The position numbers and the translations under genes are program-made. The notes under the pieces were generated by a model that did no database searches, had not been told where the DNA came from, and saw only the letters and a program-made list of their open reading frames with translations. From Teichococcus aerophilus (GTDB lineage Bacteria > Pseudomonadota > Alphaproteobacteria > Acetobacterales > Acetobacteraceae): a stretch of DNA of 64,000 nt. Shown one piece after another: positions 17,936 through 33,637 of the stretch (position 1 is its first letter; each line of letters begins with the position of its first letter). The DNA is taken from NCBI RefSeq assembly GCF_014490485.1, contig NZ_JACTVA010000020.1:1-64000 (forward strand), in the 5' to 3' direction.

Positions 17936-17955
17936 GAGGTGTTTGTTCGGTTGGT

Positions 17956-18201
17956 GAAGGCCGGGGAAGGAATTCCCCGGACCCCATCTTTTTTCTTCGA
18001 GTTTGGCGTCACGCTGCAGGGTTGAGAGCGGGCGCTCCTTGACGATTTTTATAATGGGCCACAAGGGCTGAACCGTCAGTCGCCGGAGGTCTAGGACCTC
18101 CGGCGCACCCGGCCGTGTCTCAAGCGCACCGGCCCAAAAGCCACGCCCGGAAAACTCGAAGAAAGAAAGAAGGGGCCCGGGGAATTCCTTCCCCGGCCTT
18201 C
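17956..18201 (+). repeat. Family A repeat, standard copy (A5, forward)
   Basis: A 246-bp element separating the MBL hydrolase from the convergent urt operon. It starts 20 bases after one stop codon and ends 17 bases before the other, so it occupies almost the whole gap. All three palindromes are intact. Confidence 0.86.
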
Positions 18202-18218
18202 TCTTCCCCGCCGCCGCG

Positions 18219-18911
18219 TCAGACCGTCAGCAAGCGGCGGACAGCGTCCTCGTCCAGGCTGCCGGCGGTGCCGGCGAGGGCGACTTCGCCGCGCACCATG
18301 ATGGCCAGCTGGTCGCCCAGCGCGCGGGCGAATTCGTAGTATTGCTCGACCAACACCACGGCCATGTTCCGCTCCTTCGCCAGCAGGCTGATGACGCGGG
18401 CGATATCCTTGATGACGTTGGGCTGGATGCCCTCGGTCGGCTCGTCCAGGATCAGCAGGCGGGGGCGTGCGGTCAGGGCGCGGGCGATGGCGAGTTGCTG
18501 TTGTTGGCCACCGGAGAGGTCGCCGCCGCGCCGGCGGAGGAACTGCTTCAGGATGGGGAACAGCTCGAACAGGTCGTCCGGCACCTTGGAGCCGCGTGGG
18601 GCGGCGGCGAGCGCGGTTTCCAGGTTCTCGCGCACGGTCAGGAACGGAAAGATCTCTCGCCCCTGCGGTACATAGCCGATGCCGGCACGGGCGCGGCTGG
18701 CGGCGGAGAGGCCGGCGACGTCCTGGCCTTCCCACAGGATGCGACCGGCTTTCACCCGTTCCAGCCCGACGATTGCGCGCATCAGCGAGGACTTGCCCAC
18801 GCCGTTGCGGCCGAGGACGCAGGTGATGTGCCCCGGGTCCGCCGCGAGGGAGACGCCGCGCAGCGCCCGGCTGGCGCCGTAGAACAGATCGATGCCTTCC
18901 ACCCGCAACAT
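18219..18911 (-). CDS. urtE: Urea ABC transporter ATP-binding subunit UrtE
   Basis: LivF-like ATPase of 230 residues and last gene of urtABCDE. Walker A is GRNGVGKSSLM, the Q-loop region PQGREIFPFLTVRENLE, the signature LSGGQQQQLAIARAL, and Walker B LLILDEPTEGIQ, followed by the switch region VVLVEQY. DEPTEGIQPNVI is characteristic of UrtE within the branched-chain/urea transporter group. It pairs with UrtD to drive urea import through UrtB-UrtC. Confidence 0.93.
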   Translation of the reverse strand: MLRVEGIDLFYGASRALRGVSLAADPGHITCVLGRNGVGKSSLMRAIVGLERVKAGRILWEGQDVAGLSAASRARAGIGYVPQGREIFPFLTVRENLETALAAAPRGSKVPDDLFELFPILKQFLRRRGGDLSGGQQQQLAIARALTARPRLLILDEPTEGIQPNVIKDIARVISLLAKERNMAVVLVEQYYEFARALGDQLAIMVRGEVALAGTAGSLDEDAVRRLLTV

Positions 18912-18914
18912 GCT

Positions 18915-19649
18915 TCAGCGCCCCAGATAGACTTCGATGACGCGCTGGTCGTTCTGCACGTGGTCGATGCTGCCTTCGGACAGCACGGTGCCCTCGCACA
19001 TCACCGTCACCTTGGCGCCAAGGGCGCGGACAAATTCCAGGTCATGCTCGACGACGACGACGCTGCGCTGGCCGGCGATGCGGCGCAGGAGGGCAGCGGT
19101 GTGCTCGGTCTCCTGGTCGGTCATGCCGGCCACCGGCTCGTCCACCAGCAGCAATTGCGGTTCCTGCATCAGCAGCATGCCGATCTCCAGCCATTGCCGC
19201 TGCCCGTGGGAGAGGATAGCGGCGCGGTCATGCGCCCGGTCCGCCAGGCCGATCTCGGCCATCGTGGCTTCGATGCGCCGCTGGTAGTCGGCGCCCAGCA
19301 CCCAGCGCAGGCAGGACCAGGGGTCGCGCGGCGCCTTCAGCGCCAGTTCCAGGTTCTCGAACACCGTCAGTGCATCGAACACCGTGGGCTTCTGGAACTT
19401 GCGGCCGATGCCGAGATTGGCGATGGCGGCTTCGTCCAGCCGGGTCAGGTCGTGGTCGGCGAACTGCACGGTGCCGGCGGTGGGGCGGGTCTTGCCGGTG
19501 ATGATGTCCATCATCGTCGTCTTGCCGGCGCCGTTGGGGCCAATGATGGCACGCAGCTCGCCCGGCTCGATGATCATGGACAGGTTGTTCAGCGCCTTGA
19601 AGCCGTCGAACACGACTGAGACGCCATCGAGGTACAGGACGCCGCTCAC
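18915..19649 (-). CDS. urtD: Urea ABC transporter ATP-binding subunit UrtD
   Basis: LivG-like ATPase of 244 residues. Walker A is GPNGAGKTTMMD and Walker B LLLVDEPVAGMTDQE. The signature region reads LSHGQRQWLEIGMLL; LSHGQ in place of LSGGQ is usual in UrtD. A GTG start at 19649 overlaps the urtC stop in a GTGA arrangement; the frame is open upstream but only within urtC. Overlapping starts across urtB-C-D show tight translational coupling. Confidence 0.93.
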   Translation of the reverse strand: MSGVLYLDGVSVVFDGFKALNNLSMIIEPGELRAIIGPNGAGKTTMMDIITGKTRPTAGTVQFADHDLTRLDEAAIANLGIGRKFQKPTVFDALTVFENLELALKAPRDPWSCLRWVLGADYQRRIEATMAEIGLADRAHDRAAILSHGQRQWLEIGMLLMQEPQLLLVDEPVAGMTDQETEHTAALLRRIAGQRSVVVVEHDLEFVRALGAKVTVMCEGTVLSEGSIDHVQNDQRVIEVYLGR

Positions 19650-20743
19650 CGGCCTTCTCCCTTCCTGAGTAGGCCGACCAGGCCGCGTGGCAGGAACAAC
19701 GTGACGGCGACGAAGAGGCCGCCCAGGACGAACAGCCACAGATCCGGCGCGAAGGAGGTCAGCCAGGTCTTCAGCGCATTGACCGAGAAGGCACCGAGCA
19801 GCGCCCCCACCAGCGTGCCGCGCCCGCCGACCGCCACCCAGATCACCGCCTCGATGGAGTTGCCAGGGCTGAACTCGCCGGGGTTGATGATGCCGATCAG
19901 CGGCACGTAGAGCGCGCCCGCCAGCCCCGCCAGCATGGCGGAAAGCACGAAGACGCTCAGCTTCACGCTGGTGGTGTTGTAACCAAGGAACCGCACCCGG
20001 CTTTCCGCGTCCCGCACCGCCACCAGCACGCGGCCGAGCTTGGATTGCGTGACCAGGCGGCACAGCAGCAGGGACACGCCCAGCGCCACCAGCGCCGCAT
20101 AGAACAGCGCCGCCCGCGCGCCGGCCGTATTCAGTGGAACCCCCAGCAACTCCTTGAAGTCCGTAAAACCGTTATTGCCGCCGAAGCCCATGTCGTTGCG
20201 GAAGAACGCCAGCATCAGGGCGTAGGTCATCGCCTGGGTGATGATGCTGAGATAGACGCCGGTGATGCGGCTGCGGAAGGCCAGCCAGCCGACGATGCCG
20301 GCCAGCGCGCCAGGCACCAGCAGCGCCATCAGCATGGCATAGGGGAAGCTCGAGAATCCCCACCACGGCCAGGGCAGTTCCGTATAGCCCAGGAACACCA
20401 TGAAATCCGGCAGCACCGGATGGCCATAGACGCCGCGCGGGCCGATCAGCCGCATCAGGTGCATGCCCATGGCGTAGCCGCCCAGCGCGAAGAAGGCACC
20501 GTGGCCGAGCGAGAGGATGCCGGCATAGCCCCAGGCGAGGTCGATCGCCAAAGCCAGGATGCCGTAGCAGATCCATTTGCCCGAAACGGCGACGACGAAG
20601 TCCGAGACATAGAGTACGGATTCCGGCGGCAGGCGGTTCAACACCGGCAGCATCGCCAGGATGGCCAGCCCGGCCAGCAGTAGCCCGCGCAGGATGGTGC
20701 CGCCCTGGATGCGCGGCGCCGGGGTGATCGTGGTGGCGCTCAT
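19646..20743 (-). CDS. urtC: Urea ABC transporter permease UrtC
   Basis: LivM-like inner-membrane permease of 365 residues with about ten membrane helices. Family segments include GKWICYGILALAIDLAWGYAGILSLGHGAFFALGGYAMG and GYNTTSVKLSVFVLSAMLAGLAGALYVPLIGIINPGEFSP. The long loop with MGFGGNNGFTDFK is typical of UrtC. The ATG at 20743 overlaps the urtB stop (ATGA). Confidence 0.93.
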   Translation of the reverse strand: MSATTITPAPRIQGGTILRGLLLAGLAILAMLPVLNRLPPESVLYVSDFVVAVSGKWICYGILALAIDLAWGYAGILSLGHGAFFALGGYAMGMHLMRLIGPRGVYGHPVLPDFMVFLGYTELPWPWWGFSSFPYAMLMALLVPGALAGIVGWLAFRSRITGVYLSIITQAMTYALMLAFFRNDMGFGGNNGFTDFKELLGVPLNTAGARAALFYAALVALGVSLLLCRLVTQSKLGRVLVAVRDAESRVRFLGYNTTSVKLSVFVLSAMLAGLAGALYVPLIGIINPGEFSPGNSIEAVIWVAVGGRGTLVGALLGAFSVNALKTWLTSFAPDLWLFVLGGLFVAVTLFLPRGLVGLLRKGEGR

Positions 20744-22293
20744 TGCTCGGCCGCCCTGCCCTTGAGTGCGAACAGGCCCTTCGGCCGCCGCTGGATGAAC
20801 AGCATGATGCCAACCAGCACGGCGATCTTCGCCAGTACCGCGCCGGCCCAGGGTTCCAGCAGCTTGTTGACGAGGCCGAGCGTAAACGCCCCGATCATGG
20901 TACCGGCGAGCGAGCCGACGCCGCCGAAGACGACGACCATGAAGCTGTCGATGATGTAGCCGGTGCCGAGATTGGGCGAGACGTTGTCGATCTGGCTCAG
21001 CGCCACCCCCGCCATGCCGGCGATGCCGGAACCGAAGGCGAAGGTCATCGCATCCACCCGCCCGGTGCGGATGCCCATGGTGCTGGCGATGCGGCGGTTC
21101 TGCACCACGGCGCGCATTTCCAGCCCGAAGCGGGTGAAGCGGATGGCGGCGACGGTCAGCCCCAGCACCAGCAGGGAGAAGATGATGATCCATAGCCGGT
21201 TCTGCGTGACCTCCACGCCGCCCGGCAGGGTGATGACGCCCTGCATCCAGGCCGGGCTGATCACCTCCCGGTTCTGGGCGCCGAAGGCCAGCCGCACCGC
21301 CTGCTGCAGGATCATGCCGACGCCGAAGGTCATCAGCAGCGTCTCCAGCGGGCGGCCATACAGGTGGCGGATCAGCCCGCGTTCCAGCCCCGCGCCGACG
21401 GCGGCGGTGACCAGGAAGGCGGCGGGGACGGAGAGCGGCAGCGCCCAGGGAAACAGCCAGGGAATGCCGCGGAAGGCTTCCTGCACCACCACAGTGGTGT
21501 AGGCGCCCAGCATCACCATCTCGCCATGCGCCATGTTGATGACGCCCATGACGCCGAAGGTGACGGCCAGCCCCAGCGCCGCCAGCAGCAGCACGGAGCC
21601 GAGCGAGAGGCCCTGGAAGGCGGTTTCCGCTACCCGGCGCAGTTGCAGCCGCTGGTCGATGGCGGCGACGGCGGCATCGATCTCGGGCGCCAGGTCCGGG
21701 CTGGCGGTGCGGGCTTCCAGCAGCAGGCCGCGTGCCTCGGGCGAGGCGGTGCCGCCCAGCATCAGGATGCCCTGGCGCCGCACGCCGGCATCCGGCGCGG
21801 CGAGGCGGGAGGCCGCCAGGGCGCGCTCCATCGTCGCGCGCACACCGGGGTTGGCCTCGCGGCCCAGCGCGTCCTCCAGGATCTGGATGTTCTCGGGGCT
21901 GCGGGCGCGGAACAGGCCGGCGGCGGCGGCGGCCCGCTCGGCATCGCTGGCGGAGGCCAGCTCCAGCCGGCCGAAGGCGCCGCGCAGGGCGCCACGGACG
22001 CGGTTGTTGATACGGATGGCCTCGGTGGCCGTGGGGGCGGGCGCGCCGGTCAGCGCGTCCCGCCCATCGATCGCCAGCGCACCCTCGGGGGATTTCTGCA
22101 GCCGCCCTTCGGAGAGTGCGCGGAGGATCGGCACCGCGCGCGGGTCCCCCAGGGCACCGAGGCGCTCCACCGCCTCCGCCTGGGCCGCGAAGCCGCCGGC
22201 GAGGCCGGCGACCACAGCCTCAAATCCCTCCTGCGCCCGCAACGGTGCCGCGAACAGCAGGAACACCGCCAGCAGGCGCAGGAAGCGCGTCAT
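20740..22293 (-). CDS. urtB: Urea ABC transporter permease UrtB
   Basis: Permease of 517 residues. It has a signal peptide (FLRLLAVFLLFAAPLRAQ), then a periplasmic helical-repeat domain of about 200 residues (LGALGDPRAVPILRALSEG and similar units), then a LivH-like membrane domain from about residue 225 (FQGLSLGSVLLLAALGLAVTFGVMGVINMAHGEMVMLGAY). This fusion of a soluble domain to LivH is diagnostic of UrtB. The ATG overlaps the urtA stop (ATGA). Confidence 0.94.
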   Translation of the reverse strand: MTRFLRLLAVFLLFAAPLRAQEGFEAVVAGLAGGFAAQAEAVERLGALGDPRAVPILRALSEGRLQKSPEGALAIDGRDALTGAPAPTATEAIRINNRVRGALRGAFGRLELASASDAERAAAAAGLFRARSPENIQILEDALGREANPGVRATMERALAASRLAAPDAGVRRQGILMLGGTASPEARGLLLEARTASPDLAPEIDAAVAAIDQRLQLRRVAETAFQGLSLGSVLLLAALGLAVTFGVMGVINMAHGEMVMLGAYTTVVVQEAFRGIPWLFPWALPLSVPAAFLVTAAVGAGLERGLIRHLYGRPLETLLMTFGVGMILQQAVRLAFGAQNREVISPAWMQGVITLPGGVEVTQNRLWIIIFSLLVLGLTVAAIRFTRFGLEMRAVVQNRRIASTMGIRTGRVDAMTFAFGSGIAGMAGVALSQIDNVSPNLGTGYIIDSFMVVVFGGVGSLAGTMIGAFTLGLVNKLLEPWAGAVLAKIAVLVGIMLFIQRRPKGLFALKGRAAEQ

Positions 22294-23537
22294 CAGCCGC
22301 GGCGCCGGCTGGCGTTCTCGGGGATGAAGGGCGACCAGTTCTCCGCCTTGATGGCGGTGGGCGTCTTGTAGACGATGTTGAACTGGCCATCGCCCTGGAT
22401 CTCGCCGATCATCACTGGCTTGGAGAGATGATGGTTCTCCCACATCTGCTCCTCGTAGCCGCTCGGCGCCATCACCTTCTGGCCGTACATGGCGGTGCGC
22501 ACCGCATCCACCGCCGTGGTCTTCGCCTGGGTCACCGCCTGCGCCCACATGGCGAAGCCGGTGTAGGTGGCCTCCATCGGGTCGTTGGTCACGCGCTTGT
22601 CGTTCTTGATGTAGGCATGCCACATCTTCTTGAATTCGTCGTTCGGCGCGCCCGGCACGCTCATGAAGTAGTTCCAGGCGGCCAGGTGGCCGACCAGGGG
22701 CTTGGTGTCGATGCCCGCCAGCTCCTCCTCGCCCACCGAGAAGGCGACGGAGGGGATGTCCTCCGCCTTGATGCCCTGGTTGCCCAGCTCCCGGTAGAAC
22801 GGCACGTTGGCGTCGCCGTTGATGGTGGAGACGATGGCGGTCTTCTTGCCCTCGCCGGCGAAGCGCTTCACGCGGCTGACGATGCCCTGCCAGTCGGAAT
22901 GGCCGAAGGGGGTGTATTCTTCCATGATGTCGGCATCGGCGATGCCCTTGCTGTTCAGGAAGGCGCGCAGGATGCGGTTGGTGGTGCGGGGGTACACGTA
23001 GTCGGTGCCCAGCAGCGCGATGCGCTTGGCGCCGCCGCCATCCTCGCTCATCAGGTACTCGACCGCCGGGATGGCCTGCTGGTTCGGCGCGGCGCCGGTG
23101 TAGAAGACATTCTTGCTCTGCTCCTCGCCCTCATACTGCACGGGGTAGAACAGCAGGCCGTTCAGCTCCTCGAACACCGGCAGGACGGATTTGCGGGAGA
23201 CCGACGTCCAGCAACCGAAGGTGACGTCCACCTTGTGGACCTGCAGCAGCTCCCGCGCCTTCTCAGCGAACAAGGGCCAGTTGGAGGCGGGGTCGACCAC
23301 CACGGCCTCGACCTTGCGGCCCAGCAGGCCGCCCTTGGCGTTGATGTTCTCCACCATCATCAGCACCGTGTCGCGCAGCGCGGTCTCGCTGATCGCCATG
23401 GTGCCGGAGAGGGAGTGCAGCACGCCGACCTTGATGGGCGCGCCCTGGGCGAAGGCGGGGCGGATGGCCGGCATGGCCAGCGCGCCGGCGGTGCCGGCCA
23501 GCAGGGCCCGGCGGGAGAGTTGGAACCTGGCGGTCAT
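22293..23537 (-). CDS. urtA: Urea ABC transporter substrate-binding protein UrtA
   Basis: Periplasmic urea-binding protein of 414 residues. A twin-arginine signal (LSRRALLAGTAGALAMPAIRPAFAQG) ends near residue 31. The mature protein starts IKVGVLHSLSGTMAISE, a UrtA/FmdD-type opening, and contains FGCWTSVSRKSVLPVFEELNGLLFYPVQYEGEE and GTDYVYPRTTN, which are characteristic. The start follows AGGAG. It is first gene of the urt operon, divergent from the transporter-kinase gene, with a 16-bp perfect inverted repeat 77 bases upstream. Confidence 0.94.
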   Translation of the reverse strand: MTARFQLSRRALLAGTAGALAMPAIRPAFAQGAPIKVGVLHSLSGTMAISETALRDTVLMMVENINAKGGLLGRKVEAVVVDPASNWPLFAEKARELLQVHKVDVTFGCWTSVSRKSVLPVFEELNGLLFYPVQYEGEEQSKNVFYTGAAPNQQAIPAVEYLMSEDGGGAKRIALLGTDYVYPRTTNRILRAFLNSKGIADADIMEEYTPFGHSDWQGIVSRVKRFAGEGKKTAIVSTINGDANVPFYRELGNQGIKAEDIPSVAFSVGEEELAGIDTKPLVGHLAAWNYFMSVPGAPNDEFKKMWHAYIKNDKRVTNDPMEATYTGFAMWAQAVTQAKTTAVDAVRTAMYGQKVMAPSGYEEQMWENHHLSKPVMIGEIQGDGQFNIVYKTPTAIKAENWSPFIPENASRRRG

Positions 23538-23613
23538 GGGTCGTTCTCCTGGCGGCGGCCGGGGCCGCGCTGCATGATGGCGCCAGTGTCGCGACGATCC
23601 TTGCGGAAGCGTA

Positions 23614-23629
23614 TACGTCAAATGACGTA
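23614..23629. promoter_or_regulatory. Perfect inverted repeat TACGTCA-N2-TGACGTA between urtA and the sensor kinase
   Basis: Seven-base arms with a 2-base centre, placed 77 bases before urtA and 69 bases before the kinase start. The arms resemble sites bound by LuxR/NarL-type response regulators, and such a regulator is encoded downstream of the kinase. It could control both divergent transcripts. Binding by that protein is inference. Confidence 0.6.
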
Positions 23630-23697
23630 GGCGGGGCGTGCTTGACCGCCCCAGCCATGGCACCTCACTCTGCCAGCCGTTGGACAGGGGTTTCCGC

Positions 23698-26600
23698 ATG
23701 GCGACACGCCAGCGCATCATGCGGATCCGGCGCGACTACAACCGCTGGGTGGCCGATGAGACGATGGAGGACTACGCCCTCCGCTTCACGGCGGAGAGCG
23801 CGCGCAAATGGTCCGCCTTCCGGGTGGCCAACACCGCGCTCGGCTCCATCTCCTTCCTGGCGCTGGAGGCGATCGGCGGCGCGCTGACCGTTGCCCACGG
23901 TTTCACCAACAGCGTCTCCGCCATCCTGTTTGTCTCGATCCTCATCTTCGCCGCCTCGCTGCCGATCTGCCTGAATGCCGCGCGGTCCGGCGTGGATGTG
24001 GACCTGCTGAGCCGCGGCGCCGGCTTCGGCTATATCGGCTCCACCATCACCTCGCTGATCTACGCCAGCTTCACCTTCATCTTCTTCGGCATCGAGGCCG
24101 TGATCCTCGCCGCGATGCTGGACAGCTTCTTCGGCGTTCCGCTCTGGGTGGGCTACATCCTCTGCGCCGTGGTGGTGGTGCCGCTGGTCACGCACGGCAT
24201 CACGTTCATCAGCCGCGTGCAGACCTGGACGCAGCCGGTCTGGCTGGTGCTGAACATCCTGCCGCTGGTGGCCCTGCTCGTCGCCAACCCGCAGTGGATC
24301 GAAGGCTGGACCGGGTATGGCGGCCAGCATGGCGACAACAGTTTTAATCTATTGGCCTTCGGCGCGGCGGCGTCCGTTCTCTTCGCGCTGATCACGCAGA
24401 CCGGCGAGCAGGTGGACTACATCCGCTTCATGCCGCCACGGCGCACGCAGAAGCGTTGGGTCTGGTGGGGCGCATTGCTGGCCGGCGGCCCGGGCTGGAT
24501 CGCCTTCGATGTGCTGAAGCTGCTGGCGGGCTCGTTCCTGGCCTATGCGGCGTTGCAAGCCGGCCTCACGATGGCCCAGGCGGTGCAACCGGCGGAAATG
24601 TACCGTCTGGCCTACAGTGCGCTGATAGCCTCGCCCACCTTGGTCCTGGTGATTACCAGCATCTTCGTCGCGCTGTCGCAAATAAAGATCAACGTCACCA
24701 ACGCCTATGCGGGGTCGCTAGCCTGGTCCAACTTCTTCTCCCGCATCACCCACAGCCACCCGGGGCGCGTGGTCTGGCTGGTGTTCAACATCGCCGTGGC
24801 GCTGCTGCTGATGGAACTCGGCGTCTACAACACCATCGAGCAGGTGCTGTTCATCTACTCCAACGTCGCCGCGGCCTGGATGGGCGCGCTGGTGGCGGAC
24901 CTCGCCATCAACAAGCCGCTCGGCCTCAGCCCGCCGGGCATCGAGTTCAAGCGGGCGCATCTGTACGACGTGAACCCGGTCGGCGTCGGCAGCATGGCGC
25001 TCTCCGTCGCCGCGTCCTTCCTGGCCTATTACGGCGTGCTGGGGCCGCTGGCGCAGGCGATGTCCACCTTCATCGCCTTCGGCGTCGCCTTCGCCGCCGC
25101 GCCCGCCATCGCCTGGGCCACCGGCGGCCGATATTACCTGGCCCGCAAGCCGCGCGCCGCCTGGGCCGACAAGCCTTCCCTGCAATGCGTCATCTGCGAG
25201 CATGATTTCGAGCCACGCGACATGGCCTATTGCCCTGTCTATACCGGTCCCATCTGCTCGCTCTGCTGCACGCTGGATGCGCGCTGCGGCGATGGCTGCA
25301 AGCCGCATGCCCGCCTCGCCGCCCAGGTGATGACGCCGCTGCGCGCCGCGTTGCCAGAGGCGGTGATCCGCGCGCTGGTCACGCCCGTCGGCTCCTTCCT
25401 GGTGGTGTTCCTGCTGTTCGCCGCGACGGTCGGGCTGGTGTTCCTGGGCATCCGCGCACAGGCACCGGGCAGCGCCGACCTGGATGCCGCGTTCTGGAAG
25501 GCCTTCTTCGTCCTCGCTGTCCTCGGCGGCATCACCGCCTGGGCCCTGGTGCTGGCGCGGCAGAGCCGGCTGGTGGCGCAGGAGGAGACGCGGCGGCAGA
25601 CCAGCCTGTTGATGAGCGAGATCCGTGCCCACCAGCGCACCGACGCCGCCCTGCAAAAGGCCAAGGAAACCGCCGAGGCCGCCAACATCGCCAAGAGCCG
25701 CTACGTCATCGGCATCAGCCACGAATTGCGCTCCCCGCTGAACGCCATCCTCGGCTACGCCCAGTTGCTGGAGCGCGACGCCGCCATCCCCGAGCGCAAG
25801 CGGGACGGCGTGCGCACCATCCGCCGCAGCGGCGAGCATCTGGCCGCGCTGATCGAAGGGCTGCTCGACATCTCCAAGATCGAGGCCGGGCGCATCGAGT
25901 TGTACCGGGACGAAGTGCGCTTCCCCGAGTTTCTCGACCAGCTGGTGCAGATGCTGCGCCTGCAGGCGGAGGCCAAGAGCATCGGCTTCAGCTTCGACGC
26001 ACCGCCCCGCCTGCCCGGCATCGTCCATACCGACGAGCGGCGGCTGCGGCAGATCCTGATCAACCTGCTCTCCAACGCCATCAAGTTCACCCGCACCGGC
26101 AGCGTCACCTTCCGCCTGCGCTTCCGCTCCGAGGTCGCGGAGTTCGAGGTCATCGACACCGGCATCGGCATCGCCGAGGACGATCTCGGCCGCATCTTCG
26201 AGCCCTTCCAGCGCGGCGGCAATTCGCACGCCCCCTCCACCCCCGGCGTCGGCCTCGGCCTGACCATCACCAAGATGCTGACCGAGGTGATGGGCGGCGA
26301 GATCAGCGTCACCAGCCGCCTGGGCGAGGGCAGCCGCTTCCGCGTCCGCCTGCTGCTGTCCGGCAAGGGCGAACTTCCGGCGGTGGTGGAGCGTCCGGTC
26401 ACCGGCCGGGTGCAAAGCAGCCGCCCGTTGCGCGTGCTGGTGGCCGATGACGATGCCGACCACCGCGCCCTGCTGGCGGACCTCCTGCAGCCGCTGGGCT
26501 TCGCCGTGCGCCTGGCCGCCGATGGCGCCGAGTGCCTGGCCCTGGCCGAGGCGGAGCCGCCCGACCTGTTCCTGCTGGACATCGCCATGCCCCGCATGAC

Positions 26601-27018
26601 CGGCTGGGAACTCGCCCGCCGCCTGCGGGAGGAAGCGGGCCACCGCGCCCCCATCCTCATCGTCTCCGCCAACGCGCTGGAACTGGCCCCGCCCGGTGAG
26701 GGCCAGCACCATGACGACGTGCTGCCCAAGCCGGTCTCCCTCACCGCGCTGCTGGAGAAGATCGGCCAGCTCCTCGGCGTTACCTGGACGTTCTCGGACC
26801 CCGCCCCCGCCGCACCCAGCCAGCGGCTGACCCCCACCCAGGCGGCCAACCTGCGGCAACTGGCCGCCATCGGCTATGTCGGCGGCATCCGCGAACGGCT
26901 GGACGCGCTGGAGGCCGAGGACCCCGCCGCCGCCGCCGCCATCGCCGAGTTGCGCGGCTACATCTCGGAATACCGGCTGGACGCCTTCGTCGCCGCCCTG
27001 CCGGAGGAGGAAGGCTGA
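23698..27018 (+). CDS. NCS1-type transporter fused to a hybrid histidine kinase (probable nitrogen-source transceptor)
   Basis: A 1106-residue membrane sensor. Residues about 10-480 form a full NCS1 (purine/cytosine/allantoin permease-like) transporter domain, opening with NRWVADETMEDYALR. A linker at 497-534 has eight cysteines (CVICE, YCPVYTGPICSLCC, ARCGDGCK), likely a metal site. Two more helices (about 560-625) follow. Next come a HisKA domain with ISHELRSPLN (phosphorylatable His about 675), a HATPase with LLSNAIKF, DTGIGIAEDDLG and GVGLGLTI, and a receiver with Asp about 961 (LLDIAMPRMTG). A short helical tail ends the protein. The start at 23698 follows AGGGG. It overlaps the response-regulator gene by one base. 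Its place between urea import and urease genes points to sensing urea or a urea precursor; the ligand is not shown by sequence. Confidence 0.85.
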   Translation: MATRQRIMRIRRDYNRWVADETMEDYALRFTAESARKWSAFRVANTALGSISFLALEAIGGALTVAHGFTNSVSAILFVSILIFAASLPICLNAARSGVDVDLLSRGAGFGYIGSTITSLIYASFTFIFFGIEAVILAAMLDSFFGVPLWVGYILCAVVVVPLVTHGITFISRVQTWTQPVWLVLNILPLVALLVANPQWIEGWTGYGGQHGDNSFNLLAFGAAASVLFALITQTGEQVDYIRFMPPRRTQKRWVWWGALLAGGPGWIAFDVLKLLAGSFLAYAALQAGLTMAQAVQPAEMYRLAYSALIASPTLVLVITSIFVALSQIKINVTNAYAGSLAWSNFFSRITHSHPGRVVWLVFNIAVALLLMELGVYNTIEQVLFIYSNVAAAWMGALVADLAINKPLGLSPPGIEFKRAHLYDVNPVGVGSMALSVAASFLAYYGVLGPLAQAMSTFIAFGVAFAAAPAIAWATGGRYYLARKPRAAWADKPSLQCVICEHDFEPRDMAYCPVYTGPICSLCCTLDARCGDGCKPHARLAAQVMTPLRAALPEAVIRALVTPVGSFLVVFLLFAATVGLVFLGIRAQAPGSADLDAAFWKAFFVLAVLGGITAWALVLARQSRLVAQEETRRQTSLLMSEIRAHQRTDAALQKAKETAEAANIAKSRYVIGISHELRSPLNAILGYAQLLERDAAIPERKRDGVRTIRRSGEHLAALIEGLLDISKIEAGRIELYRDEVRFPEFLDQLVQMLRLQAEAKSIGFSFDAPPRLPGIVHTDERRLRQILINLLSNAIKFTRTGSVTFRLRFRSEVAEFEVIDTGIGIAEDDLGRIFEPFQRGGNSHAPSTPGVGLGLTITKMLTEVMGGEISVTSRLGEGSRFRVRLLLSGKGELPAVVERPVTGRVQSSRPLRVLVADDDADHRALLADLLQPLGFAVRLAADGAECLALAEAEPPDLFLLDIAMPRMTGWELARRLREEAGHRAPILIVSANALELAPPGEGQHHDDVLPKPVSLTALLEKIGQLLGVTWTFSDPAPAAPSQRLTPTQAANLRQLAAIGYVGGIRERLDALEAEDPAAAAAIAELRGYISEYRLDAFVAALPEEEG

Positions 27019-27911
27019 TGGAACGCCGCGACATCGTGCTGGTGGTGGACGACGCGCCCGGCACGCTCGGCCTGCTGAACGACACGCTGGAAGGCGCCGG
27101 CTACATGGTGCTGGTGGCGCAATCCGCCGCCGCCGCCATGACCATCATCGAGCGCATCACCCCCGACATCGTGCTGATGGACGCGGTGATGCCCGGCATG
27201 GATGGCTTCGAGGCCTGCCGGCGGATGAAGCGCAACGCCAACCTCATCTCCGTCCCCGTCATCTTCATGACTGGACTGACGGAGAGCGAGGACGTGGTGC
27301 GCGGCTTCGATGCCGGCGGCGTCGACTACGTCATCAAGCCCGTGGCGCCGGACGAGGTGCTGGCCCGCATCAGCGCCCATCTGGCCAATGCCCGCCTGAC
27401 CCGCAGCGCCCACGCGGCGCTGGACGTCGCCGGCCGCTTCCTGCTGGCGGTGGACCGCGAGGGCACGCTGCTGTGGGCCACCCCGCAGGCGGCCGCCCTG
27501 CTGCGCGCCGCCAGCCCGCCCGATGCCGCCGATGCCGGCCCCTCCGGCCTGCGCCTACCCGGCTGGTCTTCCGCCGAGGCGCGCCTGGCTCCTGTCCCGC
27601 TCGCCGATGGCCGCCACATCGAGTTCCACCATGTCGGGCAGATCGAGCAGGAGGAACTGCTGCTCCGCGTCACCACCAGCGACCCGGCGCGGGAGGAGAC
27701 GGTGCTGCGGGACCGGCTGGGCCTGACGGCGCGGGAGGCCGAGGTGCTGCTGTGGCTCGGCCGCGGCAAGTCCAACCGCGACATCGCGGAGATCCTGGTG
27801 CTCAGCCCACGTACGGTGAACAAGCATCTGGAAGGCGTGTTTTCGAAGTTGGGCGTGGAGAACAGGGCTTCGGCTGCCGCGTTGTCGGTGCGGGTGCTGG
27901 GGGGCGGTTAG
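27018..27911 (+). CDS. LuxR-type DNA-binding response regulator
   Basis: Response regulator of 297 residues. The receiver (about 1-125) has DD at 11-12, the phospho-acceptor Asp 55 in VLMDAVMPGMDG, and the conserved Lys in YVIKPVAP. A middle region of about 85 residues (ALDVAGRFLLAVDREGTLLWATPQAAALLRA) looks PAS-like. The LuxR/GerE HTH is at about 235-290 (LTAREAEVLLWLGRGKSNRDIAEILVLSPRTVNKHLEGVFSKLGV). It is coupled to the kinase gene by TGATG, so it is the likely partner. Its probable target is the inverted repeat in front of urtA. Its stop codon touches a family A repeat that precedes ureD. Confidence 0.88.
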   Translation: MERRDIVLVVDDAPGTLGLLNDTLEGAGYMVLVAQSAAAAMTIIERITPDIVLMDAVMPGMDGFEACRRMKRNANLISVPVIFMTGLTESEDVVRGFDAGGVDYVIKPVAPDEVLARISAHLANARLTRSAHAALDVAGRFLLAVDREGTLLWATPQAAALLRAASPPDAADAGPSGLRLPGWSSAEARLAPVPLADGRHIEFHHVGQIEQEELLLRVTTSDPAREETVLRDRLGLTAREAEVLLWLGRGKSNRDIAEILVLSPRTVNKHLEGVFSKLGVENRASAAALSVRVLGGG

Positions 27912-28152
27912 AAGGTCGGGGGAAAGAATTCCCCCGAACCCCCATCTTTTTTCTGCGAGTCTGGACTTGGACCTGAGGCCGACGGTCGACGCAACAGGCG
28001 AAGCCTGATTGGATCCTATGAGGTCCGCGGGCTGGAGCGTCAGTCTTCGGCGCAACCGGATCGTTTCATAAAGCGAGCGGCAGCAGCAGCCACATCGCGA
28101 AGACTGGCAGAGAAAAGATGGGGGGCTGGGGGAATTCCTTCCCCCAGCCTGC
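27911..28152 (+). repeat. Family A repeat, G-rich variant (A6) between the response regulator and ureD
   Basis: A 242-bp element that begins at the last base of the response-regulator stop codon. The end hairpins are the G5 variant (TCGGGGGAAAGAATTCCCCCGA on the left, CTGGGGGAATTCCTTCCCCCAG on the right), with CCCATCTTTTTTCTGCGAG inside. The interior differs from the standard copies. It ends 38 bases before the ureD start, so the urease operon either has its promoter inside the element or depends on readthrough. Confidence 0.7.
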
Positions 28153-28189
28153 TTCCCCGCCCACCCCCACCTTGGCAGACTGGAGCCTG

Positions 28190-29017
28190 ATGTCCCTCCC
28201 CCTCCCCCGCCACCAGCGCGCCCACGGTCGGGCGGAGCTGGGCTTCGTCCACACCCAGCGCGGCACGGTGCTGAAGCACCTGTACAATGCCGCGCCCCTG
28301 CGGGTGCTGTTCCCGACGCCGGAGCCGGATGACGTGCCTCTGGCCGCGCTGGTGAATGTTGGCGGCGGCCTGGCTGGCGGCGATTCGCTGGAAGTCTCGG
28401 TGCGGCTGGAGGCCGGCGCCGGCGCCACTGTCACCACCCCGGCGGCGGAAAAGGTGTATCGCAGCGCCGGCGACATCACGCGGCTGGACACGGCGCTGGA
28501 GATCGGCCCCGGCGCCACGCTGGAATGGCTGCCGCAGGAAACCATCCTGTTCGACGGTGCGCGGCTGGAACGGCGGATGCAGGCGAGGCTGGCCCCCGGC
28601 GCGCGGCTGCTGGCGGCGGAGATGCTGGTCTATGGCCGCGTTGCGCGCGGGGAGCGGCTGGGGCACGGCGCCCTGTTCGATTCCTGGCGCCTGTGGCGGG
28701 ACGGGCGGCTGCACTGGGCCGATGCGATGGAATTGGGCGGAGATCTCGCTACGCCCCTGCGATCGCCCTTCGGCTTTGGCGGCGCCGAGGCCTCCGCCCT
28801 GCTGCTGCTGAGCGCGGGGCAGGATGCGGCGCTGGCGGCGCGGGACCTGCTGCGCCAGCAGGGGTTCGACGCCACCCTCCCCCGGCCTGGCCTGATGCTG
28901 GCCCGCTGGCTGGGCCCCGCCGGCGCGGTGCGGGAAAGCGTGGCCCGGGCATTGCCCATGTTGCGGGCAGACGCTCTCGGCCTGCCAGCCCGCCTGCCCC
29001 GACTCTGGACGAGTTGA
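28190..29017 (+). CDS. ureD: Urease accessory protein UreD
   Basis: Urease maturation scaffold (UreD/UreH) of 275 residues that binds apo-urease and forms the complex with UreF and UreG for nickel delivery. Typical segments are RAHGRAELGFVHTQRGTVLKHLYNAAPLRVLFP, LVNVGGGLAGGDSLEVSV, TTPAAEKVYRSAG, EWLPQETILFDGARLERRM and GRVARGERLGHG. The start at MSLPLPRH follows TGGAG; the frame is open 72 bases further up, inside the repeat. First gene of ureDABCEFG. Confidence 0.93.
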   Translation: MSLPLPRHQRAHGRAELGFVHTQRGTVLKHLYNAAPLRVLFPTPEPDDVPLAALVNVGGGLAGGDSLEVSVRLEAGAGATVTTPAAEKVYRSAGDITRLDTALEIGPGATLEWLPQETILFDGARLERRMQARLAPGARLLAAEMLVYGRVARGERLGHGALFDSWRLWRDGRLHWADAMELGGDLATPLRSPFGFGGAEASALLLLSAGQDAALAARDLLRQQGFDATLPRPGLMLARWLGPAGAVRESVARALPMLRADALGLPARLPRLWTS

Positions 29018-29056: not shown

Positions 29057-29359
29057 ATGCACCTGACGCCGCGTGAAAAGGACAAGCTGTTGATCGCCAT
29101 GGCGGCGGAGGTGGCGCGCAAGCGCCTCGCCCGCGGAGTGAAGCTGAACCACCCCGAGGCCATCGCCCTGATCAGCGACTTCGTGGTGGAAGGCGCCCGG
29201 GACGGCCGCAGCGTGGCCGAGCTGATGCGCGACGGCGCCACGGTCCTGACGCGGGAGCAGGTGATGGAAGGCCTGCCGGAGATGATCCACGACATCCAGG
29301 TGGAGGCCACCTTCCCGGACGGCACCAAGCTCGTCACCGTCCACAACCCGATCCGCTGA
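29057..29359 (+). CDS. ureA: Urease gamma subunit
   Basis: Urease small structural subunit of 100 residues, exactly the family length. It begins [23 protein letters not shown]. The conserved end is [18 protein letters not shown]. An AAGGA ribosome site is present. It lies 40 bp after ureD and 10 bp before ureB. It assembles with UreB and UreC into the cytoplasmic (alpha-beta-gamma)3 enzyme. Confidence 0.97.
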
Positions 29360-29369
29360 GGAACGCGCC

Positions 29370-29675
29370 ATGATTCCGGGTGAAGTCATCGTCGCCGCCG
29401 GCGAGATCGAGCTGAATGCGGGCCGCGCGGGCGTGGAGATCGAGGTCGCCAACACCGGCGACCGGCCGATCCAGGTCGGCAGCCACTACCATTTCTTCGA
29501 GACCAACCCGGCGCTCTCCTTCACCCGGGCCGAGGCGCGCGGCAGGCGGCTGGACATCGCCGCCGGCACCGCCGTGCGATTCGAGCCGGGGCAGAGCCGC
29601 AAGGTGCGCCTGGTGGATTTCGGCGGCGACCGCGTCGTGCACGGTTTCCGTGGTGAGACGGAAGGGAAGGTCTGA
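29370..29675 (+). CDS. ureB: Urease beta subunit
   Basis: Urease beta subunit of 101 residues. Family marks are [43 protein letters not shown] and [25 protein letters not shown]. It lies between ureA and ureC with gaps of 10 and 3 bases. Confidence 0.97.
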
Positions 29676-29678
29676 GCC

Positions 29679-31388
29679 ATGGCAACGAGAATTTCCCGAA
29701 CCGCCTATGCCGGCATGTATGGCCCCACGGTGGGCGACAAGGTGCGGCTGGCGGACACGGAGCTGTTCGCGGAAGTCGAGCGCGACCTGACCACCTATGG
29801 TGAGGAAGTGAAGTTCGGTGGCGGCAAGGTCATCCGCGACGGCATGGGGCAGAGCCAGCGCACCCGGGCCGAGGGCGCGATGGACACCGTCATCACCAAC
29901 GCGCTGATCATCGATCACTGGGGCATCATCAAGGCGGATGTCGGGCTGCGGGACGGGCGCATCGCCGCCATCGGCAAGGCCGGCAATCCCGATACACAAC
30001 CCGGCGTGGACATCGTCATCGGCCCAGGAACGGAGATCATCGCCTGCGAAGGGCGCATCCTGACCGTCGGCGGCATCGATCCGCATATCCACTTCATCTG
30101 CCCGCAGCAGATCGAGGAGGCTTTGGCCTCTGGCATCACCACCATGTTCGGCGGCGGCACCGGGCCGGCGCATGGCACGCTGGCCACCACCTCCACGCCC
30201 GGCCCGTGGCATATGGCGCGGATGCTGCAGGCGGCGGAAAGCTTCCCGATGAATCTCGGCTTCCTCGGCAAGGGCAACGCCGCCCTGCCGCAGGCGCTGG
30301 AGGAGCAGATCCGCGGCGGCGCCTGCGGGCTGAAGCTGCACGAGGACTGGGGCACCACCCCCAAGGCGATCGATACCTGCCTGCGCGTGGCAGACGAATT
30401 CGACATCCAGGTCGCCATCCATTCCGACACGCTGAACGAGAGCGGCTTCGTCGAGGAGACCATCCGCGCCATCGGCGGCCGCGCCATCCAGGCCTTCCAT
30501 ACCGAGGGCGCCGGCGGCGGCCACGCGCCGGACATCCTGCGTGTCATCGGCGAGCCCAATTTCCTGCCGAGCAGCACCAACCCGACCATGCCCTATACGG
30601 TGAACACCGTGGACGAGCATCTCGACATGCTGATGGTCTGCCACCACCTCGACCCTCGCATCGCCGAGGACGTCGCCTTCGCGGAATCCCGCATCCGGCG
30701 GGAGACGATCGCGGCGGAGGATATCCTGCACGACCTCGGCGCCATCTCCATGATGTCGTCCGACAGCCAGGCGATGGGGCGCGTCGGCGAGGTGATCATC
30801 CGCACCTGGCAATGCGCGCACAAGATGAAGGTGCAGCGCGGCCGCCTGCCCGGCGAGCAAGGCCAGAACGACAATCTTCGCATCCGCCGCTACATCGCCA
30901 AGTACACCATCAACCCCGCCATCGCGCAGGGCATCGCCGAGCATGTCGGCAGCCTGGAGGTCGGCAAGCTGGCGGATCTGGTGATGTGGAGCCCGGCTTT
31001 CTTCGGTGTGAAGCCGGAGATGGTGCTGAAGGCCGGCACCATCGCCATGGCGCCGATGGGCGACCCCAATGCCAGCATCCCGACGCCCCAGCCGGTGCAT
31101 TACCGGCCGATGTTCGGCGGCTTCGGCCGCGCCATGCAGGCCAGCGCCATCACCTTCGTCTCCGGCGTGGCGCTGGAGCGCGATTTGGCCGGGCAGCTTG
31201 GCCTGAACCGCACGCTGCTGCCGGTGCGCAACACCCGCAACATCGGCAAGAAGGACATGGTGCTGAACGACGCGCTGCCCCGCATCCAGATCGACCCCGA
31301 GACCTACGAGGTGCGCGCGGATGGCGAGCTGCTGATCTGCGAGCCGGCGCAGACCCTGCCGATGGCCCAACGCTACTTCCTGTTCTGA
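29679..31388 (+). CDS. ureC: Urease alpha (catalytic) subunit
   Basis: Nickel enzyme of 569 residues that hydrolyses urea to ammonia and carbamate. Nickel ligands are visible: His pair in [12 protein letters not shown], the carbamylated Lys in [12 protein letters not shown], His in [10 protein letters not shown] and [10 protein letters not shown], and Asp in [13 protein letters not shown]. The mobile flap contains [12 protein letters not shown]. The full chain runs from [21 protein letters not shown] to a C-terminal RYFLF. No disruption is seen, so an active enzyme is expected. Confidence 0.98.
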
Positions 31389-31396
31389 GCAACACG

Positions 31397-31915
31397 ATGA
31401 CCGATTCCCCCCTGCCCCGCGCCACCCAGGTCCTGCCCGCCGGCCAATGGCAGGCCCGCACGGCGAAGGACACCGTCACCGCCGGGTTCGACGACCGGCA
31501 CCGCCGCCGTCGCCGCTACACCGGCGAGAGCGGCTTCAGCTTCCTGCTGGATCTTCCCGAAGCCGTGGCGCTGCGCGACGGCGACGGCCTGTTGATCGAG
31601 GGCGGCGGCGTGGTGCTGGTGCGCGCGGCGCCGGAACCGCTGATCGAGGTGCGTGGGCAAAGCGCCGAGCATCTGCTGCGGCTGGCCTGGCATCTCGGCA
31701 ACCGGCACCTGCCGACGGAGATCGACGGCACGCGCATCCTGATCCGTGAGGACCACGTCATCCTGCGCATGTTGCAGGGGCTGGGCGCCACCGTCGCCAG
31801 GATCGACGCCCCCTTCAACCCGGAAGGCGGCGCCTATGGCGAGCACAACCGCCACACCGGCCACCGCCACGGCGAGTTGCACGACCATGGCGATGGCCAT
31901 GTCCACGCCCACTGA
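31397..31915 (+). CDS. ureE: Urease accessory nickel chaperone UreE
   Basis: Nickel metallochaperone of 172 residues. The peptide-binding domain ([35 protein letters not shown]) is followed by the metal-binding domain with [16 protein letters not shown]-terminal tail carries about ten histidines among its last 25 residues and would store nickel. The frame is open well upstream inside ureC. The ATG at 31397 lies 9 bases after the ureC stop. It overlaps the start of ureF. Confidence 0.93.
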
Positions 31916-32624
31916 CGCAGCCGCGCCGCCCCCCACAGCCGGAGCCGCCACCGATACCGCCGCGCTGCAACGGCTGCTGACCTGGCTCTCCCCGGCCTAC
32001 CCGGTCGGCGCGTATACCTACAGCCACGGGCTGGAACGTGCGGTGGAGGACGGCGCGGTGCGGGACCGCGCCACCCTGGCCGCGTTTGTCGGCAGCGTGC
32101 TGCAGGCCGGCGCTGGCCGCATCGATGGTGCCCTGCTGGTGGCCGCCTACCGCGCCGCCGGGGATGGCCCGGCGCTGGATGCGGTGGCCGACCTTGCCGC
32201 CGCCTGGCGCGGCACGGCGGAGACGGCGCTGGAGACCATGGCCCAGGGCACCGCCTTCCTGCGCGTCACCCGCGCCGCATGGCCGGATCAGCGGCTGGAT
32301 GCATTCGCCGCGCGGCACGGCAACGCCATCGCTCACCCGGTGGCGCTGGGCGCCGCCGCCGCCTGGCAGGGCGTGGACCTGCGTCTGGCACTGTTCGGCT
32401 TCCTCTCCGCCTTCGCGGCCAACATCGTCTCAGCCGGCGTACGGCTGGTGCCGCTGGGGCAGACGGATGGGCAGATCGCCACCGCCACGCTGCTGCCGGC
32501 ACTGGAAGCGGCGACAGCCGCGGCCCTCGACGCCGACCTCGACCGCATCGGCACCGCCGCCCCGGTGCTCGACCTGTTCTCCCTGCGTCATGAGACGCAA
32601 TATACGAGGCTCTTCCGCTCATGA
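31887..32624 (+). CDS. ureF: Urease accessory protein UreF
   Basis: All-helical urease activation protein of about 245 residues that acts with UreD and UreG. Recognisable segments are [82 protein letters not shown] and [20 protein letters not shown]. Three in-frame ATGs (31887, 31893, 31899) are possible starts, all within the end of ureE. The stop overlaps the ureG ATG (ATGA). Confidence 0.92.
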
Positions 32625-33280
32625 ATGCTGACGATCAGGCTCGCCCCCTCGCGCCCGGCAACCGTGCGGCCACCAACGGCCCCTTCCGCGTCGGCATCGG
32701 CGGCCCCGTCGGCTCCGGCAAGACGGCGCTGACCGACCGGCTGTGCAAGCACCTGCGCGACGCCCACAACATCGCCGTCATCACCAACGACATCTACACG
32801 CGCGAGGATGCCGAGTTCCTCACCCGCTCCGGCGCGCTGGAGCCCGAGCGCATCATCGGCGTCGAGACCGGCGGCTGCCCCCACACCGCCATCCGCGAAG
32901 ACGCCTCCATCAACCTCGCCGCCGTCGATGAGATGACCGCCCGCTTCCCCAACCTGGAAGTGCTGTTCATTGAAAGCGGCGGCGACAACCTGGCCGCCAC
33001 CTTCAGCCCCGAGCTGGCGGACCTGACCATCTACGTCATCGACGTCTCCGCCGGCGACAAGATCCCCCGCAAAGGCGGCCCCGGCATCACCCGTTCCGAC
33101 CTCCTGGTCATCAACAAGACCGACCTCGCACCCCTGGTCGGGGCCGATCTCGGCGTGATGGACCGGGATTCGAAGAAGATGCGTGGCGAACGGCCCTTCA
33201 TCTTCACCAACCTGAAGGCCAACCAGGGGGTCGCGGAGATCGCCGCGTTCGTGCTGCGGCAGGGGGGGATCGTGGCGTAG
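32621..33280 (+). CDS. ureG: Urease accessory GTPase UreG
   Basis: SIMIBI-class GTPase of 219 residues that powers nickel insertion. The P-loop is [17 protein letters not shown], the metal/G2 region [15 protein letters not shown] contains the conserved CPH nickel-binding motif, the G3 region is [16 protein letters not shown], and [13 protein letters not shown] is the guanine-binding motif. Last gene of the urease operon; a family A repeat starts on the next base after its stop codon. Confidence 0.96.
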
Positions 33281-33637
33281 GAAGGCCGGGGAAGGAATTC
33301 CCCCGGACCCCTTCTTTTATTTCTTCGAGTTGGGAACAGCGGAGAGGTCGGTCTGGCGTGGCGATGGGGCAGTGCTTTCGCTGCCGGCGAGTAGCAAGCC
33401 CGCCTCGGATTCCGATGGATTAAGCCTGCGGCGCTCACCCACCCAAATCGTCTGCTTCCGCCTCGGCGCCGAGGTTGCGCCCACCAGCGCAGTTGCGGCG
33501 ATCCATTCGCAAAAATGCCCTGAAGTATCGACCAGAGTCCCTCCGGCCACTCTCGCAAGCGAACATCGTCAGCACCGCAAACTCGAAGAAAGGAAGAAGA
33601 GGGGGAGCGGGGGAGAATTCATTCTCCCCCGCTCTTC
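33281..33637. repeat. Family A repeat, long divergent copy (A7)
   Basis: A 357-bp element between ureG and a convergent hydrolase gene. The left end is a near-standard hairpin starting directly after the stop codon of ureG. The right end is a G5 variant (CGGGGGAGAATTCATTCTCCCCCG). The interior differs from standard copies and contains, at 33414-33435, a 22-bp stretch nearly identical to one inside the family B element at 47789-47810. Confidence 0.7.

Follow-up and report, generated by a model that had tools for sequence, protein, structure and literature searches.

The window analysed here, which comprises positions 1 to 64,000 of contig NZ_JACTVA010000020.1 of Teichococcus aerophilus, encodes a hybrid histidine kinase whose N-terminal part is predicted to have the fold of an NCS1 transporter. 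The kinase gene lies between the urea transporter genes urtABCDE and the urease genes ureDABCEFG and is followed by the gene of a LuxR-type response regulator. Relatives of this pair adjoin urea or formamide genes at most of the loci read, and a palindrome marks most of the promoter regions between urtA and the kinase. Our preferred reading, to which we give a probability of about 0.7, is that the pair forms a two-component system for urea or a short amide, whose receptor is an NCS1-based transceptor with a private cysteine module. The features of this system are the following, in coordinates of the window:

23698..27018, plus strand: hybrid histidine kinase with the layout NCS1-Cys8-2TM-HisKA-HATPase-REC, 1106 amino acids in an unbroken frame
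23698..25137, plus strand: NCS1-fold sensor domain, about residues 1-480 (AlphaFold2 and Foldseek; 41% identity to a PF02133-positive standalone permease)
25186..25299, plus strand: eight-cysteine module, C497, 500, 512, 520, 523, 524, 530 and 534 (alignments and module profile)
25384..25560, plus strand: two extra predicted helices, residues 563-588 and 593-621 (AlphaFold2 secondary structure)
25693..25890, plus strand: HisKA, residues 666-731, phospho-acceptor His675 in ISHELR (Pfam; residue number counted from the alignment)
26029..26358, plus strand: HATPase_c, residues 778-887 (Pfam)
26434..26763, plus strand: C-terminal receiver (Response_reg), residues 913-1022, Asp961 (Pfam; residue number counted from the alignment)
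27018..27911, plus strand: LuxR-type response regulator, REC 7-118 (Asp55), GerE 236-288, recognition-helix N268; overlaps the kinase stop
23613..23630, no strand assigned: predicted regulator site, palindrome ATACGTCAAATGACGTAG, between the divergent urtA and kinase genes

An earlier note, made by a model from the letters of the window, had proposed this layout of the kinase, with cysteines at 497-534, two extra helices, HisKA, HATPase and a receiver, and it is borne out by the uninterrupted frame, Pfam, an AlphaFold2 model and alignments. The coupling to a LuxR-type regulator and the position between urt and ure genes, which the same note had claimed, are likewise confirmed, the former by the gene with REC and GerE domains that overlaps the kinase stop and the latter by NCBIfam and Pfam matches on both sides. 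Both His675 and Asp961 are conserved across a 25-row alignment of kinases. A longer frame starting at a GTG at 23638 is possible, but the homologue of Roseomonas haemaphysalidis (84% identity in the sensor part) has been annotated with its start at the ATG that corresponds to 23698. No histidine phosphotransfer (HPt) domain is found in the kinase or the regulator with Pfam up to E=1; this search did not extend to separate HPt proteins encoded elsewhere in the genome.

None of the profiles searched recognizes the sensor domain directly. There is no Pfam family at a credible score within the first 660 residues of the kinase, and PF02133 is not matched either in the Pfam search up to E=1 or in that of its own genome at E 0.001. 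A search of the PDB with the family profile gives nothing up to E=1, a PDB search with a standalone permease gives no match, and the SSF (SLC5) domain of Pfam is unmatched in the kinase up to E=1. Nevertheless, the NCS1 assignment is considered sound because of the predicted fold and of a standalone relative. The AlphaFold2 model, for which 60 natural sequences were aligned, shows a helical, transporter-like fold (mean predicted local distance difference test 82.6, predicted template modelling score 0.83). Its ranks 1 to 5 in a Foldseek search of the PDB are chains of the NCS1 proteins Mhp1 and CodB, with a TM-score on the target of 0.66-0.75 and a best E of 1.3e-9 for this predicted model. 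The SLC5-type proteins NIS, SiaT and DUR3, the last a plant urea carrier, rank below the NCS1 chains. In addition, a standalone permease of Klebsiella pneumoniae (P0004) matches PF02133 at E=1.1e-9. Over its residues 20-534 it shares 41% identity with the kinase of the window, and its identity to kinase sensor domains in general is 38-48%. The claim of an NCS1-like permease stands on fold and relative, not on a direct profile match.

In an alignment with CodB, the segments of transmembrane helices (TM) 1, 3 and 6 align, including the D-x-x-R-F of TM6; the residues of TM8 and the sodium site fall at a helix gap and were not used. Mhp1 and CodB differ from the kinase in that the latter has no PF02133 score, has replaced the aromatic sandwich described below and is fused to a kinase. 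Of the 122 near-invariant positions in the sensor domain of the kinases, 80 carry the same residue in each of the four standalone permeases. In contrast, Glu57 in TM1 is invariant in kinases and Phe in the four standalone relatives. Judging by these alignments, Glu57 and the second cysteine set (see below) are the clearest kinase-specific features.

The four standalone permeases, which lack a kinase, share the neighbours of the kinases in three cases. The chromosomal permease of Klebsiella pneumoniae (P0004) and a plasmid permease of Acinetobacter lwoffii adjoin urease and a plasmid permease of Moraxella osloensis adjoins formamidase, while a Streptomyces copy, in an unannotated record, has no urea gene found beside it. 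The three permeases with such neighbours (L056, 8941-10548; L171, 8959-10566; L172, 8959-10602) are labelled as cytosine or allantoin permease or as hypothetical. Each adjoins urease or formamidase and carries half of the cysteine module at its C-terminus, and by this context they are candidate urea or formamide carriers. Another locus (L206, 8249-9742) encodes a 28%-identical NCS1 permease devoid of the cysteine module, and a nitrilase-type protein and an AmiC/UrtA-like binding protein are encoded downstream of it; this permease is possibly a carrier of another amide or of a nitrile.

Of 385 genomes sampled from the same class, 26 (counting that of the window) have the sensor part, 25 of them in a frame of more than 1100 amino acids and one as a fragment. 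In a sample of the phylum, the query P0004 matches 58 places in 52 of 398 genomes; 40 of these places were read, and some of the other 18 are already in the class sample. A wider scan of genome contigs gives at least 577 relatives, of which the best 80 loci were analysed; these are rich in Bradyrhizobium and include alpha-, beta- and gammaproteobacteria. As neighbours might reflect the sampling of close relatives, the main weight is laid on the evenly drawn class and phylum samples, together with a set reduced at 80% identity for the tree and the motif. The sensor domain also matches 530 plasmid records, 342 of them from Klebsiella. At one Klebsiella plasmid locus (L057), the kinase stands with urtABCDE and formamidase near resistance and insertion sequence genes.

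Neighbours were called with reference proteins of the urt, ure, fmd and amiE types, at identity thresholds of 50-55%. The neighbourhood with urea genes, whose conservation the earlier note had made decisive for its proposal, is conserved: at least one urea or formamide gene adjoins the kinase at 20 of 25 class loci (own locus excluded), 39 of 40 phylum loci and 76 of the best 80 of at least 577 loci. The regulator adjoins the kinase at 25 of 25, 37 of 40 and 79 of 80 loci of the same three sets. By simple arithmetic, the 60 matches to the UrtA family in the approximately 134 Mb of the 26 kinase genomes would place one in about 1% of random 20-kb stretches. That similar proteins occur beside urea genes, as the note had stated, is true in that urea genes recur; the commonest partner, though, is a formamidase with a urea-like ABC transporter. 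Formamidase adjoins 11 of 25, 23 of 40 and 56 of 80 loci (class, phylum and best 80 of at least 577) and urease 2 of 25, 11 of 40 and 8 of 80.

Two types of neighbours are observed. One, to which the window belongs, consists of the true urtABCDE with or without urease. The other consists of a urt-like transporter, approximately 40% identical to the true urt, with FmdA, the zinc-ribbon protein FmdB and frequently an aliphatic amidase. The labels in most annotated records agree with these types, while that of Tistrella shows neither beside the kinase-regulator pair. To build a tree, 148 sensor sequences were thinned to 83, to which the window protein was added; L051, with split frames, was dropped, and the distant L206 was omitted from later counts. 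Urea and formamide labels form clusters on the resulting tree of 84 sensor domains, which requires at least six changes between them; therefore, the switch between urea and formamide has happened several times. There are also five genomes with two copies. In four of them (G520, G584, G605 and G725), one copy lies beside urease and the other beside formamidase, while in G460 formamidase adjoins both NCS1-kinase genes, one of which encodes a kinase of another type.

The regulator appears to be linked to the urt promoter by a palindrome, whose consensus in the intergenic regions between urtA and kinase is ATACGTCA-N2-TGACGTAT. Its core TACG-N8-CGTA is present in 41 of 61 such regions, taken from the identity-reduced set, whereas six first-order randomisations give 0.5 on average, and in 49 of the 61 the best site matches at least 12 of 16 consensus positions. 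The best site in the window is ATACGTCAAATGACGTAG, which is the sole match at up to two mismatches in its own 5.66-Mb genome. The exact core lies within 600 bp upstream of 40 of 78 kinases, where 0.56 are expected from the rest of the loci, although this set overlaps with the discovery set. In Tistrella, whose three genomes are close relatives and count as one observation, the orphan kinase is preceded by one core site and the distant urt-like/fmd operon by another. At two mismatches, the palindrome occurs at 14 places in kinase genomes, seven between kinase and urtA, one between regulator and urtA and six elsewhere. An exact copy of the window palindrome also occurs in a genome without a kinase match (G041, locus L215, 7244-7261), with no reference urea genes within 15 kb around it; this copy is possibly due to chance.

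Regulator and palindrome vary together. Among the 52 of 61 loci with a convincing palindrome, regulator residue 268 is the column most associated with the letters of the half-sites (Fisher 1e-4). Both halves are ACGT in 33 of the 44 loci whose regulator has N268 and in none of the eight with D, Q or T at this position; this covariation ties the regulator to the palindrome. The palindrome, which marks most urtA-kinase promoters, is predicted to be the site of the regulator.

Between the sensor domain and the kinase core lies the eight-cysteine module, for which the model gives a small beta-hairpin plus a helix that begins at the second C-x2-C. The eight cysteines vary neither among the 25 aligned kinases nor in the 60-row alignment. 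In 240 genomes, the profile of the module has 14 matches, each within a kinase frame of this sort of 1130-1241 amino acids, and matches nothing else. The four standalone permeases retain C497, C500, C520 and C523, that is, two C-x2-C knuckles at the C-terminus, while the second four-cysteine set is missing from them, except for one residue in one protein. The module probably folds as a zinc knuckle, to which the kinases would add a second metal site; an iron-sulphur or redox role is also possible. The same sensor also occurs on another kinase. Two loci (L187, 9999-12656, minus strand, and L208) carry the NCS1-Cys8 sensor on a different kinase without receiver or LuxR-type partner, still adjoining formamidase and FmdB; their sequences indicate that the sensor module has moved onto another kinase. 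At a further locus (L051, genome G326), the kinase gene is split into separate frames while the regulator is intact, and the genome has no UrtA or FmdA match at E 1e-60. This state reflects either decay after the loss of targets or an assembly error.

Kinases with a transporter as sensor have been described before. In the available parts of the sources, CrbS/CrbR is a hybrid SLC5 kinase with a LuxR-type regulator and an inverted repeat needed for activation (PMC5715377), and RpuS/RpuR is a hybrid SLC5 kinase whose regulator needs a conserved repeat (PMC9100948). As far as these parts tell, the present protein resembles CbrA, CrbS and RpuS in its complete N-terminal transporter domain and histidine kinase in one chain, in having uptake or use genes of a compound as presumed targets and, as regards CrbS and RpuS, in its C-terminal receiver. 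A LuxR-type partner and a conserved repeat in target promoters are further likenesses to CrbS/CrbR. HisKA and HATPase are indeed in one chain here, with the regulator encoded adjacently. By contrast, the transporter family is NCS1 rather than SLC5, the neighbours are urea and formamide genes, and the linker is an eight-cysteine module with two helices instead of a recognized STAC domain. Residues 480-660 have no Pfam match and the model places helices there at 540-551, 554-561, 563-588 and 593-621; STAC was compared via Pfam only. Because the SLC5 feature was looked for and not found, the present family is not regarded as an SLC5/STAC member. The view taken in the earlier note, that this is an NCS1-based counterpart of CbrA-type transporter-kinases, has held, and the counterpart is conserved beside genes for nitrogen compounds. 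By analogy, CrbS/CrbR may serve as the nearest working model for the present pair.

On this model, the NCS1 domain would bind a small amide within the membrane, and binding would shift the transporter-like domain between states. The shift would travel via the cysteine module and the two-helix hairpin to the HisKA/HATPase core, whose His675 would donate a phosphoryl group to the LuxR-type regulator; the C-terminal receiver would act as an intermediate or a brake. Without an HPt domain in the pair, His675 might phosphorylate the regulator directly, or the hybrid receiver might modulate the kinase. The phosphorylated regulator would then bind the palindrome at 23613-23630 and activate the divergent urtABCDE and kinase-regulator transcripts, thereby raising urea uptake and so the supply of urease. 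The sensor domain may or may not transport its ligand as well, and the ure genes are putative further targets. At sister loci, the same system would serve formamide or another short amide.

The nature of the ligand can be approached through the pocket of CodB, where, according to the available part of PMC9379551, cytosine is held between Trp108 and Phe204, a pair conserved in the family. MAFFT and HHalign agree in placing F129 and L231 of the kinase at these positions, and the two residues suggest a pocket poorly suited to a stacked ring. F129 is present in all 52 kinases whose loci are of the formamide type, as judged by fmdA, a urt-like transporter or amiE; among the 23 at urea-type loci (ure or true urt), 13 have F and 10 have L at this position. 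Positions 229 and 233, which correspond to the substrate-site residues Gly202 and Ser206 of CodB, likewise belong to the six that discriminate best among 350 variable positions. NCS1 proteins can also take substrates without a ring, as is reported for MetT and metformin in the available part of PMC13390362. Considering the neighbours and the replaced aromatic pair, a small non-ring amide (urea or formamide) is favoured as ligand and ring-shaped ligands are disfavoured. Of the nitrogen compounds named in the earlier note, urea is retained, while allantoin, hydantoin and purine lose support. A more extended proposal would be that one NCS1 scaffold has switched repeatedly between urea and formamide at positions 129, 229 and 233, that the cysteine module is a two-metal gate and that the standalone relatives are unrecognized uptake transporters; we put this forward tentatively, as something that may well prove wrong.

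Other signals have been weighed against urea or a short amide. The pair might respond to general nitrogen limitation (ammonium, glutamine or the carbon/nitrogen ratio), with the NCS1 domain as a membrane anchor or a degenerate transporter. This would accord with CbrA, which is discussed as a sensor of the carbon/nitrogen ratio in the available part of PMC5715377, and with the four full-flank loci (three of Tistrella and L043) where the pair lies apart from its presumed targets. It is unlikely, as a mere anchor would not be expected to keep the near-invariant residues shared with all four standalone permeases, and as the neighbours are specific to urea and formamide, with two-copy genomes split between urease and formamidase in four of five cases. 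A sensor in the cysteine module itself, for a metal or for redox state, with the NCS1 domain as second input or transporter, seems to us decidedly unlikely. Urease needs nickel, which would fit a metal-sensing module, as would the eight invariant cysteines, the restriction of the module profile to these kinases in 240 genomes and the retention of the first four-cysteine set alone in standalone permeases. However, formamidase-linked kinases carry the same eight cysteines, and we know of no nickel enzyme at their loci. Moreover, one cysteine set is not specific to signalling, because standalone permeases without a kinase keep it.

The least probable signal, and one that we consider very improbable, is a ring-shaped nitrogen compound (allantoin, hydantoin, purine or pyrimidine) that releases urea, so that the urea genes would encode downstream steps. 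Such a ligand would agree with the other characterized bacterial NCS1 proteins, which take ring compounds according to the available part of the MetT paper (PMC13390362), and with the annotation of relatives as cytosine or allantoin permease. One locus (L053) lists a cytosine permease near an aliphatic amidase. Nevertheless, formamidase as the commonest partner would be left unexplained, the aromatic sandwich is replaced by F and L, and no gene labelled allantoinase, hydantoinase or purine-degrading is present at the nine annotated kinase/permease loci, whose labels do include, besides that cytosine permease, a polysaccharide deacetylase at L053 and, approximately 10 kb away, a subunit of a molybdopterin-binding oxidoreductase at L060.

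Several observations weigh against a urea or short-amide sensor acting through the palindrome. Urea and formamide neighbours are missing at 5 of 25 class loci, 1 of 40 phylum loci and 4 of the best 80 of at least 577 loci. The first are the three Tistrella loci, L043 and the broken L051, and the second is L206, a 28% relative without a kinase. Among the last (L066, L110, L132 and L140), L066 and L132 have less than 400 bp of upstream sequence, while L110 and L140 lack the neighbours despite full flanks. The three Tistrella genomes do have a urt-like and formamidase operon elsewhere, and in G051, the genome of L043, UrtA lies approximately 60 kb away on the same contig. Nitrogen status could be the real signal. 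The two transporter types are also not separable by the NCBIfam UrtA model, because the binding proteins linked to formamidase, like those for urea, score above its urea cut-off. With regard to the pocket, the alignment to CodB is remote (HHalign probability 26%, E 7e-4), and the enrichment of pocket positions ignores phylogeny, with independent pairs reaching no significance. With two mismatches allowed, only 11 of the 26 kinase genomes contain the full palindrome, and 6 of its 14 places are elsewhere, whereas a reversed control gives 5 places. For 38 of 78 kinases, the 600 bp upstream lack the exact core; some of these kinases have near variants there, and others, such as those of L174, L189 and L195, which are divergent from urease, show neither core nor near variant. 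Covariation between residue 268 and the half-sites comprises three independent pairs, a mean of 2.6 in the expected direction and 0 in the opposite one, which is not significant, and the column search was uncorrected for multiple tests. Finally, no good palindrome is found upstream of ureD in a palindrome search of the window, and a hairpin-forming repeat at 27901-28162 could uncouple ure from the kinase transcript.

The genes on the two sides of the kinase-regulator pair in the window are the following:

22293..23537, minus strand: urtA, urea-binding protein (TIGR03407, above cut-off)
20740..22303, minus strand: urtB, start approximate (TIGR03409, above cut-off)
19646..20740, minus strand: urtC, start approximate (TIGR03408, above cut-off)
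18915..19661, minus strand: urtD, start approximate (TIGR03411, above cut-off)
18219..18911, minus strand: urtE (TIGR03410, above cut-off)
28118..29017, plus strand: ureD, true start probably further in (PF01774)
29057..29359, plus strand: ureA (PF00547)
29370..29675, plus strand: ureB (PF00699)
29679..31388, plus strand: ureC (TIGR01792, above cut-off)
31388..31915, plus strand: ureE, start approximate (UreE models, below their cut-offs)
31929..32624, plus strand: ureF, start approximate (PF01730)
32621..33280, plus strand: ureG (TIGR00101, above cut-off)

Searched at E 1e-60, the genome of the window yields a single match to UrtA and none to formamidase. The hairpin-forming repeat mentioned above is related to a palindromic repeat of approximately 250 bp that is interspersed genome-wide, with the core GGGGAAGGAATTCCCC. 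At one mismatch, this core has 431 forward matches, and its reversed control has 0; of 566 candidates, the 40 that were scored are all nearly full-length. In the window, one copy follows urtE (17950-18205), the related one of 260 bp lies between the regulator and ureD (27901-28162; folding z-score -8.4), and a partial one follows ureG (33281-33323).

Clusters like those read here have appeared in the literature. In the available part of PMC3098086, a SIMBAL study, Bradyrhizobium japonicum blr0968-blr0973 has urt-like permeases beside FmdA and AmiE, and their substrate is argued to be acetamide or formamide. Similarly, Ectopseudomonas guguanensis G3 has fmdA, urtABCDE and a LuxR-family two-component pair with consecutive locus numbers (PMC13296017, available part), and a urt/fmd cluster is annotated in the available part of PMC13209695. 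The present loci contain the same clusters as B. japonicum and G3, with the kinase pair divergent. The available parts of PMC3098086 and PMC13296017 do not mention a transporter domain on the kinase, that of PMC13209695 does not mention the fusion, and no description of an NCS1-kinase fusion was found among the entries listed in searches of the open-licence PMC literature. According to the available literature, few transceptor kinases have been studied by experiment, and those characterized are SLC5-based.

If the urea or short-amide reading is correct, a second transporter family would act as receptor in alpha-, beta- and gammaproteobacteria, and carriers would have become receptors more than once. 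The standalone carriers with the same neighbours allow a direct comparison of sensor and carrier. Labels such as cytosine or allantoin permease would need correcting, and the system would represent a dedicated bacterial sensor for urea or formamide with a named promoter site.

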